Source: Clavelina lepadiformis (lineage: Eukaryota; Chordata; Ascidiacea; Aplousobranchia; Clavelinidae). From it: 64,000 nt of DNA. Location of the stretch: the NCBI RefSeq assembly GCF_947623445.1, contig NC_135241.1:20400501-20464500 (forward strand), given 5' to 3'. Below are positions 51,704 through 63,986 of the stretch, one piece after another (the first letter of the stretch is position 1; each line of letters opens with the position of its first letter). The notes below the pieces were generated by a model that did no database searches, was not told the DNA's origin, and was given only the letters and a program-made list of their open reading frames with translations. A program made the translations under genes and the position numbers.

Positions 51704-54700
51704 ATGTGGAACGCTTGTAGTGTTACCAGGTTATTCGCCCTGGTTGCCTTGTCCGGAGCTTTAGGGATGCAAGTACCTCCGGAGTCGGGAGGTGATTCGT
51801 GCGAGGGATATCGTAGTCTCCTCACAAGAGTCCTTGTGCAATATTCAGCAACATATTTTGCCGACAATCCAAGAAACGAAGGAACAATAATTGATCCTAA
51901 TCAAATATTTCCGCTCACTCCTCTTCAACTCTTTCGGGAGTTCTACGGTGACAGCGCTACTCCAGAACATTTCAAAGAAGCCATCTTGAAGACGTATTAT
52001 TCTGATCCTGGACCATACGGACCCGCCCCTGAGGATGCTGACCGAATCATTTTACGTGATAACATTTACACTTACGCCCAAGCATCGAGTTACGATCTGG
52101 CCCGAGAAAAATTTGGTGTTTTGCTCTACCTCGGAATCACAGACTATGCTGTAAACTCTGCTGCCTGGTTAAACTCAAGATGCATTGAACCCCAGTTTAT
52201 CGATGATGCTGAAGATGTGATAACCGCAGAACTGGAAAGGTAAGCAGCCGTCTTGAATAACTTTTAAGGCTTTAAAAGCCTAATATTGTGAGGTAAGGTT
52301 TTTTTTCAATCAAGCAGCACAACGCAGGTTAAAAGGTGTGAATGTCACACAAAACGTTGTTGCACAAAAGTCTGTGCAACGAATGATAAAATAAGTGTAT
52401 TTTGGGAAAGGTTGAAGCAAACTACAGATATAAAGCAAAATCACGTCTCGGTGTTAATCACCATCTTTTTAAAATAACGAGAAAAGCGTTGGCGTTTCAT
52501 TTCTTTGGTCCTTTTGATCCGTTCATCGTAATTTCATGCAATTAAAAGAATTATATTAATAAATAAAGCGAGGAATTCGTACGTCACGACCATAATACGT
52601 GCCACGAAATAATTTTTAAAAATATATCGACATGATTTGAGGCTAAACCGGTTATATTTTAAAAATTATTAGAAAAGTAATGAACTAATGATCTAAACCC
52701 GAAACCAATTTTTGTTTCTCTTTTCTCTTTCTTTATTCAACGTAGTAACATTCATTTCCAACACGCACATGGTTAAACTGTTTTCTAAATATTGTTTTAT
52801 TTTTGTTCTTTTTTCTGATTAAAATGTTTTATTTGACGTTTTGACATTTCATTTCTCAAATCTTTTAACCCAGGGTTCGAAATGAAATTGGAGAATTTAA
52901 ATTCGGGGCATTCATGGATTTGGGTTCGGGCACAACTTTGGCTTTTGCCATCGATGATACGGGAAGTATGTCCGGCGAAATTGCCGCAGCAAAAGTCAGA
53001 GTCAAAGTAAGAATTTTCAGCTTTTTTTTTCAATTTTTTCAATTTCAATTTTTCAATTTCTGCTAGAATTGTTTATATTGTGATATAAATTCTATTATAC
53101 TGGAATAGAATAATCCTTTTTATAATGAAATTAATGTTTCGGGAATGGTATAACAATCTATAGAAAGTCAGACAATATGATTGTGAATGCGAAATGAGCA
53201 TCGCCATTTCCAACACACGATTTGCATCAGTTACAGAAACTGTTTTGAAAAATAAATCAATTTATCTGCAGCAAATCATCGACGAGCGTCAAGGATCTTT
53301 GGACCAACCATCCGACTTCGTTCTGGTACCATTTAACGATCCCACTGTCGGTCCTGTGACAACCACTGGTAACCCTGATGTTTTCAAAGCAGCCATTGAC
53401 AGGTAAGAAGAAAGTGTAGCAAAAAAACTGTGTGTAAAGGCGACTACATGATGTAAATATAGCAACAACTACACTGTGCACCGGCAGATTCTTCATCTGG
53501 AATTTCATTTGCGTATATTTTTGACAAAACTCGGTGGTCGCGAAATATTCTTCGTTGGATAAACACAACTTACGCTATAACATGCATCTTTATCAGCTAA
53601 ATTAGAGTTGCAAGTCCTCAACGTATATAGGCTATTATTCCATTTGAGCGATTTGGTTGAGTGATTCGTATTTTATTGAAATAAACAACGGTTCAATATC
53701 CGGTCTTACCGCTGCTGTTGCTCGGACGAACTACGGGTTCATTGCTAACCAACATCATAACATATTGACTAACTTCATCACAGGGCTGATACGCACAAAA
53801 CACGAACAACGGTTTTTTTGTAGATTACTGCCGGCAGCAACACTGCAGTTATATTTTTGTAAGGTCTTGACTCAAACTTGTTTTGATTTAGGTTATATGC
53901 TCATGGTGGAGGTGACGCTCCTGAACTCGCCCTCAGAGGAATCCTGCTTGCGATTGAAAACAGCAGAGAAGGTTCAACCGTATTTGTCATCACTGACATC
54001 GACGCAAAGGATGTCGAGCTTCAGGTAATTTTGCACTGGTTTGTGTAACGTTACATGTACTGTACAGTGTCATAGACAAAGGAAATATTTCTTTTTATGA
54101 CTATCTGTATTAATACGTGCCAAAAAGTTTGTATGATTCACTGTCCGCTTTTTCCCGATTATCATAATTTAAGTCACGCGTCTTTTTTAACATTTGTTGG
54201 CTTGTTGACGATTAACTTTGCCGGCAGCTTATAACGAAAACGGTGGATTGTTTACGAAAAGTTTTCAGCAGAGCAATGAAATTCTGCTGTTTTTTTTCAT
54301 AAACCGACGTCATGTATTTTTTTGACAAAGCATATAGCTTTTCTGACAGATTAAATCATTGTCTGGCCACTAATGCCGTGTTCAAAGAAATTGTATTAAA
54401 ACCACATCACTTATAGTTGTCTTAAACGACACGTTTAACATAAATCCATGTCGAATATGCCACAGGGAAGCATTTATTTGTGTGTAACTCATATACTAAA
54501 CAATTAATAGTCTCATAGAGCCGGTAAAAAGTTACTCTTTAAATGCATATTGCATATAACAGAAGTTGTTCGATAGCGATTATGCTACTCATATTACAGT
54601 CTTAATTTTATTAAACTTATTTTTAGAACTGCCCCCTCGTATGTCCGACTCCTGTTTGATTTTTATCTTCCAGCTTATGTAACGCTATGCTACGCTTATG

Positions 54701-57700
54701 TAGCCCTTAACGGCGTGGGCGTCGACATTTTTTACGGTTATGCGCACGAATTTATTGTTCACTTTCGCCCTTGAGCAAAATTAAGAGCCTCGGTGACATA
54801 AACCCGTTAAGTAAACCTTAATACACCGTAGTTGTCAGGATTTTGATAACGCGCAATAAGAATATTTAATACTCTTTGAGATCTACATATTTTAAGGATC
54901 AAGTTGTTGCCTCAGCTGTCCAGAAGAACATAAAAATCACATTTTTGCTTACCAACCGTATCAGGACAACAATGTGCAGATTCTACACCAGGTAATTCAC
55001 TTTTGTGTACTGTCTATATAATGGACCATATTGTAAGTATGAAATTATATTAATATAGCCCACATGCTATGTGAAGCATTAAGCGACTACTAACCGCGAC
55101 AAAAGTATAATCGTTTAGGCCTATAAGATGCGCAATTTTGTTAATATTTATAGGTAAGTAACATTATACGTAGCTACACATCCTCATTTTCTTGTAACAA
55201 CAATAATGGATGATATGATGTATATACTTAAGTAATTCGTTGTATTAATTATATTCGTATGTCATGATTTTGTTGAACAAAAAGTGTAAATTTAATTTAA
55301 TTTAAATCAAGGCATAGAAATTCTAATTTACTTATATTTTGTTTCCTCCGTTGCTTGCTGCTACATGCTCCTCACAATCCTTCCTGTAACTTCCTAACCT
55401 TCACTTTTGTGTAACAGATCACGGGATAATGCTTTGAATAAGAGGAGGTGCGAGACTCCTTCCTTCCGATTCGGATTTGAATTATTTCAATACATTGCCG
55501 ACAGCACGGGAGGCAATCTTCTGGTCGTTTCGAAACGGGACATTTTCAGAGCGACTCAGGTCATTGACAGCAATGTCAAACAGGGTGTTGTGGATATTGC
55601 CTATCATGTGTTATCAGGTGAGTCATTCTAACTATTAACAAATCTATATATACCTGAACGAGTTGAATGAAACTTGCAGTCAAAGTGAATTAAAAACAAA
55701 AAGATCAGAATGATAGAATAACACGTAAACCTTGACTCATCTAGCAAAAAACATCACTGTTGCTATGTGGTATGTGCGTAAAACGGAAATAGATTATCAT
55801 CAAAGTGATTAGCCCAAAATAGTTAATTATATTTGCAAACAAATGTACTCACACTAAAATTGCCAATAACATTATCTTACAGGTGGTCGGCAGAGGTTCA
55901 CCTTCGATGTCGACTCCTCATCGCGAGAAATTTTCTTACAGCTTACCGGAAATTGTGATGACGTTGGCGTGACGTTTGAAGGATCTAGTTTAAAAATAGA
56001 GGTTATAGTTTATTGCCCTGAATATCCTAATAATTGTCATAACCTCTATTAATTGTTTTGTTTCGTTCTTCTTTCGTATTTGGGAAAGCTATCATATACC
56101 TTTTATTGCTCTTTAATATGTAAATACTAAATTCGAGAAATATGAAAATTATTAGTGGGATGTTGTGGGATGATGTCCGCAAAAGTTGGGAGCTTTGACT
56201 GCAACAAATTTTAACCTGTTGGTATATTTTGTTGCGCCTTCAGGACCCAATCAATGTTGGAGACTTATACGAAGGACGAGTTATGGTGGGAGATAACCAC
56301 GGTCCATGGACCGTTTCGGTGAACGTTGGAGGCAGTTGTTCAGCTAAGGTGATTTCCTATAAACCGGTTAAACCGGAATTCATCTTAGATAGGCGTATTG
56401 CTGGAGAATTTGCCTTTTCAATATGTTCTATATCCCAGGCTATATATAACCTTGTTGATAAGGCCTCAAAGTGTAGGTGTTATTTGCCTAAAGCGGTTTC
56501 GTAACCTTTCTGCAGTTATTTGATATTTATTAATTTCTCGATGACAGGTCGTAGCCCGAAGCACTTTCGGTTTTGTTCAAACTTTGGCAACTGAAACAGC
56601 AAACGAAGTTGGAGAGGTGACAGTCACAAAGATCGATGGTAATTTTCAATAATTTATCTAAAGTGGTTTCATAATTAAGAATATAATTCTACAGTCTTTT
56701 TTTGGATCTACAGAGGTTGTTTATCTGTCACATATTCGCTAAGACATTTAACGAAGATTAATGTGCCATAAAAGATGAACAAGTGTATTTCCGTTCCAAA
56801 GATTTATTTATGAAAACACAGAATATCGAGCCGCATCTTTTACCTTTGATTACTTAGTAGGGACATAATGCACCGATGTAAATCAATTTACTAATGCACT
56901 TTTCGCTCTCTAAACATCCGTCGGTCGAATTCTACCTTGAGGACATGTTTTACTTAAGTATATTTTCTGTGAAATCATCCAGACCCGATCTTCTTTAAGT
57001 AGTTTTCGTTCGGTGACAATATCTACTTGAGATGATGTATTTTATCGTTTGTTATCTACGATTCAGGACAACCACTTATTTCTGAGGACACCGTCATATT
57101 GATCGACATTTTCGGTAAACAACCGGGTGATACAGTCACTTCTGTAGATTTCGTCTCACAAGCTACTGGTCAAGTTTTAGAAACTTTTAAGTAAGAACTA
57201 TTTATCCATTACAGTACAATTAAATCAAACGCAACATCTTACAGTGAAATTTTAAATGTTGTTACTTTATTAAGTTTCAAATGAAATAAAAAGTCATGAT
57301 TTCGCTTTCAGCATCAATGACTCGGGATTAAACGCATTTCGTGTGAGTCCAGATACAAATCCATCTTCTCCATTTTTTGCTGTTGTACGAGGAACAGATC
57401 GAAACGGATTCAGATTCAACAGAATTCACGTTTCTCCAATTGAATTTGTAAACGTTGCGCTAGACTGTGTTGACATCGACAACATTGTGTTCAGGTTAGA
57501 AACTACTTTATGAATAACAAATGCTGTACGTACAAGTAACCTCAAAGATTATGCTTATTAGCCTATTTTTTGTGTTGTTATTTATTTGTACCACTCGTGT
57601 GTACCAAGCTATCAGCCCTCTTCAATTTGACGCGCTTGTTTTAACCAACAGTTTTGGGAACTGTTTCTTATAATCAAATTTCGGAAATACTGCTTCTTAG

Positions 57701-57921
57701 GCCTGGAGATACGGTCGACGTCACCATATCAGTGGAAAATCGTGGCTCTCGAAGTGGATCATTCGAGCTTGGTGCCACCGACACTCAAGGATATGTCAGT
57801 TCTGCCGGAGTAAGCCCCAGTCTTATAAACGTGGATGGGAGTTCCACAGGGACCAGTCAGTTCCAAGTGACAGCGCCTGATAATGCAGTGGTTGGTACAA
57901 CAAATGTCATCACCGTAACGG
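51704..57921 (+). CDS. VWA7: VWA7-like secreted protein (N-terminal half of an apparent VWA7-ITIH fusion)
   Basis: Twelve exons join without a phase error: 51704-52239, 52874-53006, 53272-53402, 53892-54024, 54897-54991, 55418-55617, 55883-56001, 56244-56348, 56548-56638, 57067-57190, 57312-57494, 57701-57921, giving 690 residues. The ATG opens a signal peptide (MWNACSVTRLFALVALSGAL). A VWA7-type N-terminal helical region follows, then a VWA domain with metal-site motif DDTGSMS, VLVPFNDPTVGPV, HGGGDAPELAL and FVITDIDAKD; the human VWA7 counterparts are DTTGSMG, VLVPFHDPGFGPV, LGGGDEPE and FVFTDASPKD. Next come beta-rich Ig-like or fibronectin-like segments and a final domain RPGDTVDVTISVENRG ending VVGTTNVITVT, again as in VWA7. 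There is no stop codon at the end: the last exon ends in phase 1 and fits the ITIH-like exon at 58202. Confidence 0.88.
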
Positions 57922-58201
57922 GTACGAATCGTCTATGTTTGATGATAAACTGTATACAGTAATTCTCGTTATTTATTTTTACATTAGTTTGGTTTTAAAT
58001 AAGTTGCGTCATAATACTTTTTTTGACTTTTAACACCATCCGAAATACATACTTGCTTTTTCGACGCTAAATACATTCGATTGCACGCTTCTTCCTATAA
58101 TTTATGCTTGGTGCGTTGTTGTTATAATGGATAGATACCTTGATAAAAAGTTGTGCACTACGCCTTGTCTAAGGAATTAACCGCAGATCTTCTCTTCACA
58201 G

Positions 58202-61200
58202 CCACAACAAGCTTATCGAGCTTCCTTTTGTACAAATCATGTCGAATAGTGGTTGGCCAACGACTTAGACCCAAGGTGGAATCTTTCATGGTCGACACCA
58301 CGATCAGTTCTCGTTTTGCAGAAACTGCTTTGACTACGATTGTACATAATGAGTAAGTTATGGCCGTTCTGCTGTTTGCTTTATATCAATATTATTCATA
58401 AAAGGGTTTTTTATGAATTAGGCTATGACTTCTGCATTGTAGGAATTTATAACTTAAAAGCTAGCATATTTTTTACTACTGAAAATCCGTCGATTTCATT
58501 GGTCAGCGAGTCATAATCATGTCGTAAGTCATTTACCCATAATTACACCGGTTAGTATTTTGCTGTCATACCACAAAACGTCATTCAAATGTATCTTTAT
58601 GTTTATCCATTTGCCCAGCGCTGCCGTAGGCAGGGAGGCAGAGTTTAGCGTTCTTCTGCCGCTCGATGCTTTCATCACCAGCTTTTCTATGACAATCGAT
58701 GGCGTCACTTATGAGGGAACAATTCGCGAAAAGGAAGAAGCTCAACGAATATTTAATATTGCTAGGGTAAGATCACCATAGTCACACATGACATTGTTAC
58801 TATACAATACGAAATCATTTGCTGTAAAATTAAGCAAAGACCCATAAATACCGCAGAAATAGAAATGATAAACGAAATTTGACAATGTACTTTCGGAATA
58901 TAATACCGTAAATCATGAATCGCGGTCCACTGTTCCAAGGCATGAAATCCGTTACTTTTGTTAAGACATTCAGAAGGCAATCTTAGTTGCAAAACTATAC
59001 CAACTGTTATAGGATCGACAACTATCCGCCGGTCATGTTGTTGCACGAGATGAATCGACCACAGTTTTTCAAACCTCTGTCAACTTGGAACCTTTCAAAC
59101 GAGTGACGTTTGAGCTGAAATATCAAGAATTGCTCGTGAAAAAGAATGGAAAGTAAATAAGTTGTAATTTTTTAGTTTTTTTAACAATTACATTGATGTT
59201 TTTGGCTTTAAGTTATTAACCACCATTTGGGCTACATATCTCACAACTCCACTTCACGTGTGTTAGGCACTATCTGTAGCTCTAGGCTATACGTATAACC
59301 TATCAGGTTGTCTTTCGCTAAAACCTACTTTCTTCAAATGTTTAGAAAGCTTATCGTACATTCAGATTCAATTAAGATAGTCACCTTTTGAGCTTTTGTA
59401 TCAAATTTAGATGTTTTGATCTTATTTTCCAAATCAGATATACTTATGGGGTGTCAGTTCAAATGCTTCAGCCTGTGCAAGAATTTCGAATCGATGTGTC
59501 AATATGCGAAGGAGAAGATCTTCTGTTTGTCAATGTACCAGGCTTTGAGACTGAACAAAGCAGCATTCCTGAACCAATCGCACTCCCAGGTGTCACAGTC
59601 ACCAGACGAGCGTAAGTATACAACTTTTAACAGTCCTATTTGGCTTCAAATACATTGTCTTCGTTTCTCGACGAAATTTGCATGATATACACTGCAAATT
59701 ATATTAATGAATTAATTTATGTGAATAAGATTTCAAAAATTTTTGTATGTATCACAAAGTATGTCAAAGAAACGATGCTTGGGTCGTGATAACATGTCGC
59801 GTTATTTTGCATCTTCTCGGACATGTTCTTTGATTTAAATTGTTATCCAATATGTTAAAAATTCTGTGCCGCTTGCATGGAAATAATCTGACATCTACTT
59901 CTTAACAAGCTAGTTATGACAAATAACGTTTGTTAACGCTAAAGAATGCGAATTTTTACGTGAAATTTAGAAATTCAGCTCAAGTGAGTTACGCTCCAAC
60001 ACGTGACCAGCAAACCATCTTCTCACCGCTTGGTTTAAGTGGGAGGTTTGTGGTTGAGTATGACGTAGTCAGGGAATCTGCCACAAGCGAACTTCTTATT
60101 GCTGGAGAGTAAGAAAATCTACATTATGGCTTTTGTTTCAACAAACGCTAATTTTTCTAACTGTTAAAAAAGTAACCATGTTTAAAATAACTTACTCTAT
60201 TAAACAGCATCAATAAAAGTGAAAAAGTAGCTTGCATACTGCGCTTGTAACAATGGGTATTGTTCATAGTTGAAATATGCTTAACATATTATTTTTTGCA
60301 TTTAATCAACACAAAAAAACTATTTTCAGATATTTTGTTCATTTTATTGAACCTTCGCTTGACCCGATGCCAAAACGTGTTGTCTTTGCACTCGATGTAT
60401 CTGGGTCAATGTTTGGTCACAAACTTAAACAACTGAGACTTGCTATGTCAGATATTCTTGATCAATTTCGTCCAGATGTAAGTATATTGATGTTAATCTG
60501 TTTCGTTAATAATTAATTTATTATTTTCTGTTAAAGAAATAATAAATTTTTTTAAATATAAGGTACCTGTACCGAGTAAGGCCCACCTAACACTTTTTTG
60601 AAAATAACTCAAGAACCATAAATGAGAATAGACTGAAAAATCGTATTCTATTAGTGAGGGTATATGACTACAACATATTAAAGCCACAATACCTGACAAC
60701 CCCTCAAAAAATTTTATAAAGAAATTAAAAATTCCAAAAAATGGGCCTTATTAGGAGCATAGGCTCCTAATAAAGCCCACCAATTTTGTGAGTATTTTGA
60801 TTCAAAACATATTAATAGACAACATATAACATTATTAGAAATTTCACATTTTAAGTTGTACAAACATTTAAAAAGATTCCACTAGGCGCATCAAAGTAAC
60901 TGCAACAATTTGCCAACTGATGACTGGAACCACTCTTGAAGTCTGGACATCAATTAGCCAAGCATCTTGTATGGGCCTTATTAGGCGCATGTGGCATCCA
61001 CGAAAAAAATGTCACATTTTTATCATCAGAAAAATTTTAGCAAAAAAAGTGCATTATCCTTTTCAATACTAAGTTGGTTGTTACATGAAAACTTCAGCCG
61101 GCTGACAACAGTTCGTTTAACCGGACAAATTCTCACTTACTTTTTTTCTAAATAAACAAAACCACCTTAACTGCAAATATCAAAATTTTGTTGTGCTCTA

Positions 61201-63986
61201 GCGAATCGGTTGATCACGTGACAAGGATGAAATCTGGTAAACCATCATGAATTTATATTAGTTTTTATGTAGGGACAAAATCTTTCATTTATTTGCACGG
61301 GTTTGTGAAATATGAGCAATGGGCCTTATTAGGGACCGGGCCTTATTCGGTACAGGTACCTTATATGATTTTTGTGAGTTTTCATCTTCATGAAATTTAG
61401 TTTTTGGTATTGTTTTTATTTCACAGGATCAGTTCTCTATCATAGTGTTCAATAGTTCGGTGACGCGATGGGAACCGGAAGGACTTTCCACGACTTTAGC
61501 TCCTGCAACTCCTGCTTACTTAAGGCAAGCAAAATCTTTCCTTGATGAGGTGATGGCTCGCGGAGGAACTGACATCCTTCAAGCTGCTCAAGCCGCCATC
61601 AACATGTTGTCCGTGGCTGTTGAAGAGAGCCCAGATGGTATTGCTTGTGTTATACAATTACTTTCATTGTTTTCTTCAGTATTTGTTACATTTTAAACTT
61701 TATTTCAATACAGTTGCATTAAACTGAAAAAGAATTGTCGTAAGTTTAGTTTCGTTGTTTTTAGCTTCTTCATTGGGTGGACTTGAAGCATCCAATCCTG
61801 CCGCGGATTACATCATACTCCTAACTGACGGGCAATCCACGGAAGGGGTTATTAAACCCAGTGATATTGAAAAAGAAATCGCTGACGACAACGAGTATGT
61901 TTTTTATTGAAATTAAAAAGATCTTTTCTTCAACACTAAGTGACTGTTAATTTAAGGTATATAATAATATCTGCTATGAAAAAGAGGTAAAGTCATTGAT
62001 TTTAAATGTTGATAGATATGTGAGAACTAAACATTTTCTATCTTATAGTGATCGGTTCGGAATTCACACGATCGGTTTTGGTTCGCTAGTGGATGCTAGA
62101 ATGCTGAGGAGGATTGCGGCTCAAAATGTCGGAACCTCGATTCAAATTTTCATCGACATAGATACGCACGTTCAGGTATATAGAATCGTGTATAATTTCT
62201 TTTTTCTTGACAACAAGTGTGAAAACTGTGGTTACAGTTCTCATACTGTACAACGTATTTCATTTCTTGCTTAACAGTAGCACCGAACAGATTTATCATT
62301 GGACATTTACATTTGCAGATGGCCAGCTTCTTTTCAGGTATCTCAAGACCCGTGCTCCGTGACGTCGAAATTGAATACCCGCCTAGCACTGTTCGAAAAA
62401 CGAGTGACACTTCGTTCCGAGCAAGTTTCATCGGATCAGAAATTATAGTCGCCGGAAGATTTAGTGCTGATTTCGTCATAGACAACGTGAGTCCCCGCAG
62501 GAGACGTGACGTTACTTTTGATTTCCTGGAATTTACTTTGAGAGGTATTTACCTTTATTAAACTTTTAAGAATTTGTTTTCAAGGTTAGATGTTAAACTC
62601 TGTTTCGCCCGGTTAAATGCCATAGTTGTTGAGAATTGTTGTGTATGCTATTGGACATGAAGGTTTCTTATATCTTACAATTTATTTGAAGATACCTAGA
62701 ATAGTTGTGCAGTTATTAGGGTTTTCAAATACATTATGCCGATAGTTTTATTAAGCCGTTTTCAACATAGGCTAACAGCTGTATAAGTTCATGACGTGAT
62801 ATTTTTACCCAAAGGCAAAACCAGGAAAGACGACAGAATTATTCCTGAAAACGCCACACCTCGTGATTTGGCCGAGCTGTGCCTTGCAACCGAATTCCAG
62901 GTAATTGCTTCCCGCATATGACCCGTGAACATAACGTGAAATTTACCAGTTGCAGCAAATCTAAACGTGCAATTTGAAACGTTACTGCAGGTTCTTAATT
63001 TTGCCGAACGTTTGAACATCTTTTTGGAATTGAAAAACTTGTTAAGGCGCATTGATGCAACGACGAATAATACCGAAGAAGAAAGCCTTCGTGATGAAGC
63101 TCTCCAGCTTTCCTTAGAGTCAGTCTAATAAATAATCCTTAGAAACCTTGTTCTTTATTGACATTGCCAAAATTATAAAAACATATGTGTTTGATGCAGA
63201 AACGAATTTGTAACTCCTGGAATAACTGCACTCATCGTTGTAAAGCCCGATGATCTTAAAGAAATAGACGAAGCGATTGAAGAAGAGGACTCGACCACTA
63301 CAACGGCAGCTCCCACCACAACTGCAAGACCGCCCATCGGTTTAACCTCCAGCGGTAGGGAGGAGGCCCTTGATAGTCGTCTCATTGGTGCTAGGCCAAC
63401 GTTTACCACACCACCCAGAAGAATTGACATTTTTGGTGACCCTCACATAATTCTTGATCTTGAAGAGCAAGTGACGGTTTGCTTTACATGGCAAGGCGAA
63501 GATAGCCAGGTATAAGGCTTGTACAAATGGTAATAAAATGCATAAAAATAACGTATACCGTGTATACTCGTTAGTAACGCAAATATTACATCACTTTATG
63601 GAAAAATTAAAAAAATACAACAGGTCATCTCCCATTGAACATGTTTTTAAACCGTTCTTTTTACGTTAAACAAACTGCAAATTATAACAATATTTAACAT
63701 ATTTGTTATGGTGTCCTAATATTTATCCTTGTACCAAGTAAAATCTTTGCGCAACTTAAACTCGGTGATGAATGATGATTGTCTTTCGATCATTGTTTGG
63801 TGATTATTTTTTATTTATCTCATTTTTTTGTTGTTGTTGTAGATCTACAACATTTTACATGACGATGTAAACGGTATCACTGTCAACGCCAAGTTGTCGC
63901 ATGGGCCGCTAAGTGTAAGGAACAATCAACACACGTACATTGACCACTTAGCCCTGATGTTTAGAAAGCAGAATGTGACAGCCGAG
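58202..63986 (+). CDS. Inter-alpha-trypsin inhibitor heavy chain-like (C-terminal half of the fusion; runs off the window)
   Basis: Fourteen exons in phase: 58202-58352, 58619-58766, 59013-59152, 59438-59611, 59971-60108, 60330-60477, 61427-61637, 61765-61894, 62049-62175, 62319-62544, 62815-62900, 62991-63118, 63200-63509, 63843-63986, then a donor, so it continues. Order: VIT domain (ISSRFAETALTTIV, FITSFSMTIDGVTYEGTI, VTFELKYQELL), then VWA (YFVHFIEP, metal site DVSGSM, LLTDGQSTEG), linker EIIVAGRF, EFVTPGITALIVVKPDD, a Thr/Ala/Pro-rich stretch and the start of the ITI C-terminal domain (FGDPHIILDL, human GDPHF). ITIH proteins bind hyaluronan covalently through the Asp of a DPH motif, and DPH is present here (in the read part). 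No in-frame ATG or signal peptide precedes 58202, which supports splicing from the VWA7-like exons. Visible length 753 residues. Confidence 0.88.
60559..61363. mobile_element. Non-autonomous TIR element (805 bp) in an ITIH-like intron
   Basis: The ends are inverted repeats: TAAGGTACCTGTACCGAGTA on the left and TAAGGTACCTGTACCGAATA on the right (reverse complement), and both continue with AGGCCC, 25 of 26 alike. TA flanks each end (60557-60558 and 61364-61365). The word GGGCCTTATTAGG recurs internally (60744, 60973, 61321), once as a palindrome with GGAGCATAGGCTCC at its centre. No coding frame is present. It lies in the intron between the exons for the metal site and the next part of the VWA domain, and does not disturb the splice sites. 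Confidence 0.75.

Follow-up and report, generated by a model that had tools for sequence, protein, structure and literature searches.

The stretch analysed here (the window) comprises 64,000 nucleotides of the 209-Mb genome of the ascidian Clavelina lepadiformis (C2:20400501-20464500), and it carries a gene, referred to as gene 1, in which a VWA7-like region is followed by a region resembling an inter-alpha-trypsin inhibitor heavy chain (ITIH). Judged from its sequence, this is very probably a single gene that encodes a single secreted protein with a VWA7-type and an ITIH-type half. The original prediction of such a fused protein finds support in the exon chain, in a joint that would lie inside exon 13, and in three related genes of the same genome (genes 2, 3, and 4). 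Gene 1 was rebuilt from the sequence by script as 26 in-window exons (51704..63986), with all introns bounded by GT..AG; these exons sum to 4332 nt, i.e., 1444 codons with no stops, which bears out exon by exon the single frame to the window edge that had been claimed. Exon 12 ends in phase 1 at 57921 (C2:20458421) and exon 13 starts in phase 1 at 58202 (C2:20458702), the same phases as proposed. The gene extends past the window with exons 27 to 29 at window-equivalent positions 64323-64490, 64694-64884, and 65156-65321; when complete, it consists of 29 exons encoding 1618 residues, and its TAA ends at window-equivalent 65321 (C2:20465821). The features of gene 1 are the following:

51704..52239, + strand: exon 1, with the start codon, a signal-peptide-like N-terminus, and an N-terminal region common to genes 2-4
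52874-53006, 53272-53402, 53892-54024, 54897-54991, 55418-55617, + strand: exons 2-6, VWA7/hemicentin-type VWA domain (PF25106)
55883-56001, 56244-56348, 56548-56638, 57067-57190, 57312-57494, + strand: exons 7-11, weak hemicentin galactose-binding-like match and beta-rich regions
57312-57494, + strand: exon 11, where the Ig-like domain region also begins, including its cysteine
57701..57921, + strand: exon 12, body of the VWA7 Ig-like domain (PF23619)
57922..58201, + strand: intron 12, 280 bp, phase 1
58202..58275, + strand: first part of exon 13, predicted final Ig_VWA7 strand, which includes a cysteine, followed by a linker that reads VVGQR.RP in genes 1-3
58276-58352, 58619-58766, 59013-59152, + strand: remainder of exon 13 and exons 14-15, VIT domain (PF08487)
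59438-59611, 59971-60108, 60330-60477, 61427-61637, 61765-61894, 62049-62175, + strand: exons 16-21, ITIH middle region and second VWA
62319-62544, 62815-62900, 62991-63118, + strand: exons 22-24, ITIH region C-terminal of the VWA
63200..63509, + strand: exon 25, Thr-rich linker and GDPH motif
63843..63986, + strand: exon 26, start of ITI_HC_C (PF06668), a domain that continues to window-equivalent 64323-65321

Scanning against Pfam placed in one protein the architecture that had been anticipated, i.e., a VWA7 part, VIT, a second VWA, and the ITI C-terminal domain. VWA_4 (PF25106) matched residues 201-382 of gene 1 with 180.9 bits, and Ig_VWA7 (PF23619) reached 28.5 bits in the 1444-residue protein (curated cut-off, 27). 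The hemicentin-type galactose-binding region scored 19.1, 24.4, and 17.4 bits in genes 1, 2, and 3, respectively, all below the cut-off of 27. In the second half of the gene 1 protein, VIT (PF08487) occupies residues 717-827 (90.3 bits) and a second VWA domain residues 957-1133 (VWA_3, 70.6 bits; VWA, 60.5 bits), and ITI_HC_C (PF06668) lies at the protein end with 87.1 and 84.4 bits in genes 1 and 2, the two that were scanned for it. DxSxS is the metal ion-dependent adhesion site (MIDAS)-type motif of VWA domains, and the second VWA carries it as DVSGS in genes 1 and 2, DISGS in gene 3, and DTSGS in gene 4; a GDPH motif is present in all four genes. Among solved structures, human ITIH4 (E 3.2e-89) and ITIH1 (E 9.2e-68) aligned with the ITIH half over ∼600 residues, and none besides these passed the threshold of E 0.001 (3 distinct sequences matched). 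The predicted heavy-chain half is intact, with VIT, middle region, MIDAS-type VWA, GDPH, and ITI_HC_C. Gene 1 shares with ITIH heavy chains the VIT, the DxSxS-bearing VWA, GDPH, ITI_HC_C, and the ∼600 residues alignable with the human proteins, but differs from them in that no signal peptide was found directly before VIT, where a 690-residue VWA7-type half stands instead. With VWA7, which we take to end after its Ig domain and to hold a hemicentin-type galactose-binding region between VWA and Ig, it shares VWA_4 followed by Ig_VWA7, both above the curated cut-off; unlike VWA7, it continues past the Ig domain into VIT, and the predicted last Ig strand and VIT share an exon.

The position of that joint was resolved by profile scores. 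The VWA7/ITIH border had been put at 57921/58202, which is correct as an exon border but not as a domain border, which falls inside exon 13; the Ig_VWA7 match of gene 1 crosses 57921/58202. Exon 12 was scored against Ig_VWA7 alone, with the first 25 residues of exon 13 as a tail, or with the read-through of intron 12. The respective scores were 27.1 bits (to profile position 83 of 104), 33.4 bits (position 90), and 28.4 bits (position 85) in gene 1; 27.6, 34.2 (position 101 of 104), and 29.1 bits in gene 2; and 36.2, 47.6 (position 102 of 104), and 36.7 bits in gene 3. Exon 13 therefore adds a modest 6 to 7 bits in genes 1 and 2 and a clear 11 bits in gene 3, and intron read-through adds 1.5 bits at most in these three genes. 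As a control in gene 1, the true tail scored 33.6 bits in a construct in which three hand-shuffled tails yielded 29.2, 27.6, and 29.8 bits. Because the score rises more with the start of exon 13 than with the read-through, the gene 1 segment SFLLYKSCRIVV, which includes a cysteine, is on this evidence the predicted last strand of the Ig domain. Its cysteine, like another where the Ig region begins, is found in all four genes, and we infer that the two pair. The 25 codons preceding VIT were also compared between genes. Gene 1 was paired with gene 3 here, because the joint DNA of gene 2 hardly differs from that of gene 1; a ratio of nonsynonymous to synonymous divergence (dN/dS) for the joint of genes 1 and 2 was rejected, exon 13 being among the homogenised exons (see below). 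Genes 1 and 3 share 11 identical residues over this segment, in frame and without gaps, 8 of them through different codons, a score reached by 0 of 20000 shuffles, and the other two frames gave 4 identical positions each. As far as this evidence goes, exon 13 would accordingly close the VWA7 Ig-like domain with its last strand and also open VIT, such that neither predicted half would be complete without it.

The same arrangement recurs elsewhere in the genome. Gene 2 is an inverted copy directly downstream of gene 1 (C2:20479723 down to 20467854) with 29 exons and 1602 residues; all 29 gene 1 exons have counterparts in it, 24 of them of equal length, and the 26 in-window exons were also retrieved by tblastn. 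Gene 3, on chromosome 4 (model from C4:10079124), is divergent and has the same domain order, the same phase-1 joint, and a hydrophobic N-terminus, with no in-frame ATG in its exon 13. Gene 4 (from about C2:20494868) is likewise divergent with the same order; its exon 12 donor lies ∼8 codons further on with phase 1 kept, and the first VWA carries DRSKD in place of the DDTGS of gene 1. Genes 2, 3, and 4 were modelled with a home-made splice aligner. From the 30 pieces of gene 2, the first, of 21 nt, was removed as spurious; 17 of the 41 pieces of gene 3 are doubtful, some of which are still included in the protein scanned with Pfam, and the gene 4 model consists of 32 pieces with one stop in a forced stretch, so that gene 4 may not be intact. 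The recurrence of domain order and phase-1 joint in four genes on two chromosomes looks like the mark of a real composite gene, and the genome holds a small family of these predicted fusions. Between genes 2 and 4 (C2 ∼20481.7k-20490.3k) there are also degenerate fragments of a further fused copy, some with stops.

Comparison of genes 1 and 2 indicates conservation at the protein level on both sides of the joint. Synonymous divergence (dS) was at least 0.82 or saturated in 17 of the 29 exons. Exons 3-9 and 12, from the VWA7 half, had dN values of 0.07-0.32 with dS at 1.04 or saturated, and exons 20-29, from the ITIH half, had dN values of 0.09-0.31 with dS at 0.57 or more. As dN is similar in the exons of the two halves, both have been kept as protein to a similar degree, under purifying selection. 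Nine of the 29 exons (1, 2, 10, 13, 14, and 16-19) had dS values of only 0.03-0.25, and intermediate figures were obtained for exon 15 (0.37) and for exons 11 and 23 (about 0.6). The 28 introns are mostly unalignable, even beside near-identical exons, and matches of at least 40 bp occur in introns 16, 18, and 19 only. This synonymous patchwork looks like repeated short gene conversion that is largely confined to exons. Intron 18 of gene 1 additionally contains an 806-bp element with inverted ends (60560-61365) that is absent from intron 18 of gene 2. Among 248 genome candidates, the best 40, itself included, were scored, and all 40 were near full length with 97-100% identity; the element probably represents a recently active non-autonomous DNA transposon family.

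The two outcomes named beforehand as signs of separate genes, i.e., a separate transcript end and a separate signal-peptide start, were checked at the sequence level around intron 12, which measures 280, 192, 134, and 240 bp in genes 1, 2, 3, and 4, respectively. Neither AATAAA nor ATTAAA occurs in intron 12 of gene 1 or gene 3. The 1.85 kb upstream of exon 13 in gene 1, the stretch from exon 8 to exon 13 in gene 2, and 1.9 kb in gene 3 were scanned for a leader contained in one exon, with an ATG, a hydrophobic start, and a phase-1 donor at least as strong as the weakest of 54; no such exon was found in any of the three genes. The open frame immediately upstream of exon 13 in gene 1 has no ATG, in agreement with the earlier statement that this exon is preceded by neither an in-frame ATG nor a signal peptide. 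The companion statement that no stop follows exon 12 holds for the spliced form and fails if intron 12 is retained, in which case 13 extra residues would precede a stop at 57960-57962. Apart from the counter-points below, a reading as two genes gained no support when the sequence was searched for stop codons, poly(A) hexamers, ATGs in frame, and exons encoding a signal peptide.

Tunicates have spliced leaders and operons with short gaps, so that the locus could be an operon of two genes in which the VWA7 transcript ends in intron 12, ITIH starts by spliced-leader trans-splicing at 58202, and the unit has been duplicated whole, which would account for the repeated order. The gap of just 134-280 bp suits this scenario, as do the stops met by intron 12 read-through after 13, 5, and 5 residues in genes 1-3 and the hexamers in intron 12 of gene 2 (ATTAAA) and gene 4 (AATAAA and ATTAAA). 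However, an ITIH protein beginning with exon 13 would start within an Ig strand, with neither a signal peptide nor, in genes 1-3, an in-frame ATG before VIT, and a VWA7 protein that stopped within intron 12 would miss its last strand and finish in tails that are unrelated between genes. We therefore regard the operon as very improbable. A milder alternative, compatible with a fusion, is that the fused transcript coexists with equally important VWA7-only or ITIH-only isoforms that arise through polyadenylation within an intron or from a promoter inside the gene. The early stop upon retention of intron 12 speaks for it; the lack of a common read-through tail in genes 1-3, of either hexamer in intron 12 of genes 1 and 3, and of any single signal-peptide exon candidate before exon 13 in the stretches searched of genes 1-3 makes it unlikely. 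A third possibility is that an assembly join, or two unrelated genes that happen to be neighbours, has been mistaken for one continuous frame. At a single joint the phases would agree by chance in about one case in three, but the same order with the same joint phase in four genes on two chromosomes already contradicts this explanation, as does the presence of both domains in exon 13 itself with no intervening intron, and its weight is practically negligible.

Several observations nonetheless weigh against one fused gene. Besides the hexamers in genes 2 and 4, intron 12 of gene 1 has a 32-codon open reading frame (ORF) with a hydrophobic stretch at 57935; it provided no candidate exon at the donor threshold used, and the same ORF scan was empty in genes 2 and 3. 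The splice sites of this intron are below the median in gene 1 (donor ranked 9 and acceptor 11 of 56 from genes 1 and 2, with 1 being the weakest); those of gene 2 rank 11 and 21. In gene 3, the donor GTCCTA scores below all 56, and the acceptor is within range. Exon 13 of gene 4 has an in-frame ATG before VIT, with no signal-like stretch after it, and the Ig region of gene 4 was not recognised by Pfam with or without exon 13. The models of genes 3 and 4 are approximate, and the 25-codon joint segment of genes 1 and 2 displays one nucleotide difference and no synonymous one, so that this pair offers no selection test there.

VWA7-like and ITIH-like sequences also occur apart from the fused genes. 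A VIT profile search of the contigs returned at least 11 matches among 23 scored candidates, three of which, on C8, are ITIH-like (C8:15706850 was the one compared), and a VWA_4 search returned at least 22 matches, with none on C8 among the matches listed. ITIH genes with no detected VWA7 half thus appear to be present here as well. The three C8 matches (C8:15706850, 15723760, and 15745901) cover the same profile range within 40 kb and likely correspond to a tandem set of such genes. Upstream of the C8 ITIH gene there are 12 hydrophobic ATG-led ORFs with no basis for choosing among them. The VIT locus on C7 showed no match to the 1444-residue protein. A further VWA7-like VWA domain, made up of VWA_4 pieces, lies at C1:7960000-7974000, followed by downstream pieces that match Sushi and VWD. 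This locus resembles gene 1 in its VWA_4 pieces and in an ensuing stretch that by eye recalls an Ig end, and differs from it in the Sushi and VWD pieces, candidate members of the same gene, that take the place of ITIH. The Ig-like resemblance was discarded, as Pfam gave no Ig_VWA7 match and just fn3_5 below the cut-off. VWA7-type modules may have been combined with several C-terminal partners in this genome.

In the working model that we propose, the signal peptide would lead into the VWA7-type half (VWA_4, beta regions, and Ig_VWA7) and then into a complete heavy-chain half, for a total of 1618 residues, with the VWA7 half occupying the place of a heavy chain's own signal peptide. The fused protein would be secreted and, by analogy with heavy chains, located in blood or matrix. 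Human heavy chain 1 (HC1) is described as relying on the MIDAS for cation-dependent self-association and C3 binding, and the C termini of HC1 and HC2 as being ester-linked to chondroitin sulfate upon removal of their C-terminal pro-domains (PMC7170535). According to another article (PMC10880436), GDPH occurs in ITIH3, ITIH5, and ITIH6; this motif is cleaved between its Asp and Pro residues in many VWD domains, and the authors propose that heavy chains might undergo the same cleavage. In gene 1, a cut at GDPH would free the C-terminal domain, the Asp left at the new C terminus could form an ester link to a glycosaminoglycan, and the two VWA domains could make cation-dependent contacts such that one molecule joins two partners, the VWA7 half serving as a second binding arm. 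As a whole, this combination of blood or matrix site, GDPH cut, glycosaminoglycan linkage, and two-partner VWA contacts is possible rather than probable; its matrix and GDPH roles are proposed by analogy only, which also counts on the negative side of the balance. Doubtful, although conceivable, is a broader and joint proposal, namely a tunicate family of pre-joined two-VWA matrix linkers that are cut at GDPH and bound to glycosaminoglycan, perhaps without bikunin or TSG-6, with the VWA7 half holding a second partner, and that stem from a fusion old enough to have spread over two chromosomes and to have been kept. A protein labelled ITIH3 has been reported in Ciona samples of a tunic proteome, in a passage that is silent on any fusion (PMC7401272).

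No VWA7-ITIH fusion was found described in the literature on these families, which was covered in part and judged by title or the start of the abstract; the fusion may already be present unnoticed in automatic annotation. What is new is the combination of domains that are themselves known, rather than the kind of system. The fusion would link two extracellular protein families in one chordate protein whose joint construction is visible, with Ig and VIT strands in one exon, and it raises the questions of how heavy chains are used in tunicates and what the VWA7 module binds. A natural fusion of this sort hints that the activities of VWA7 and of the heavy chains may belong together.

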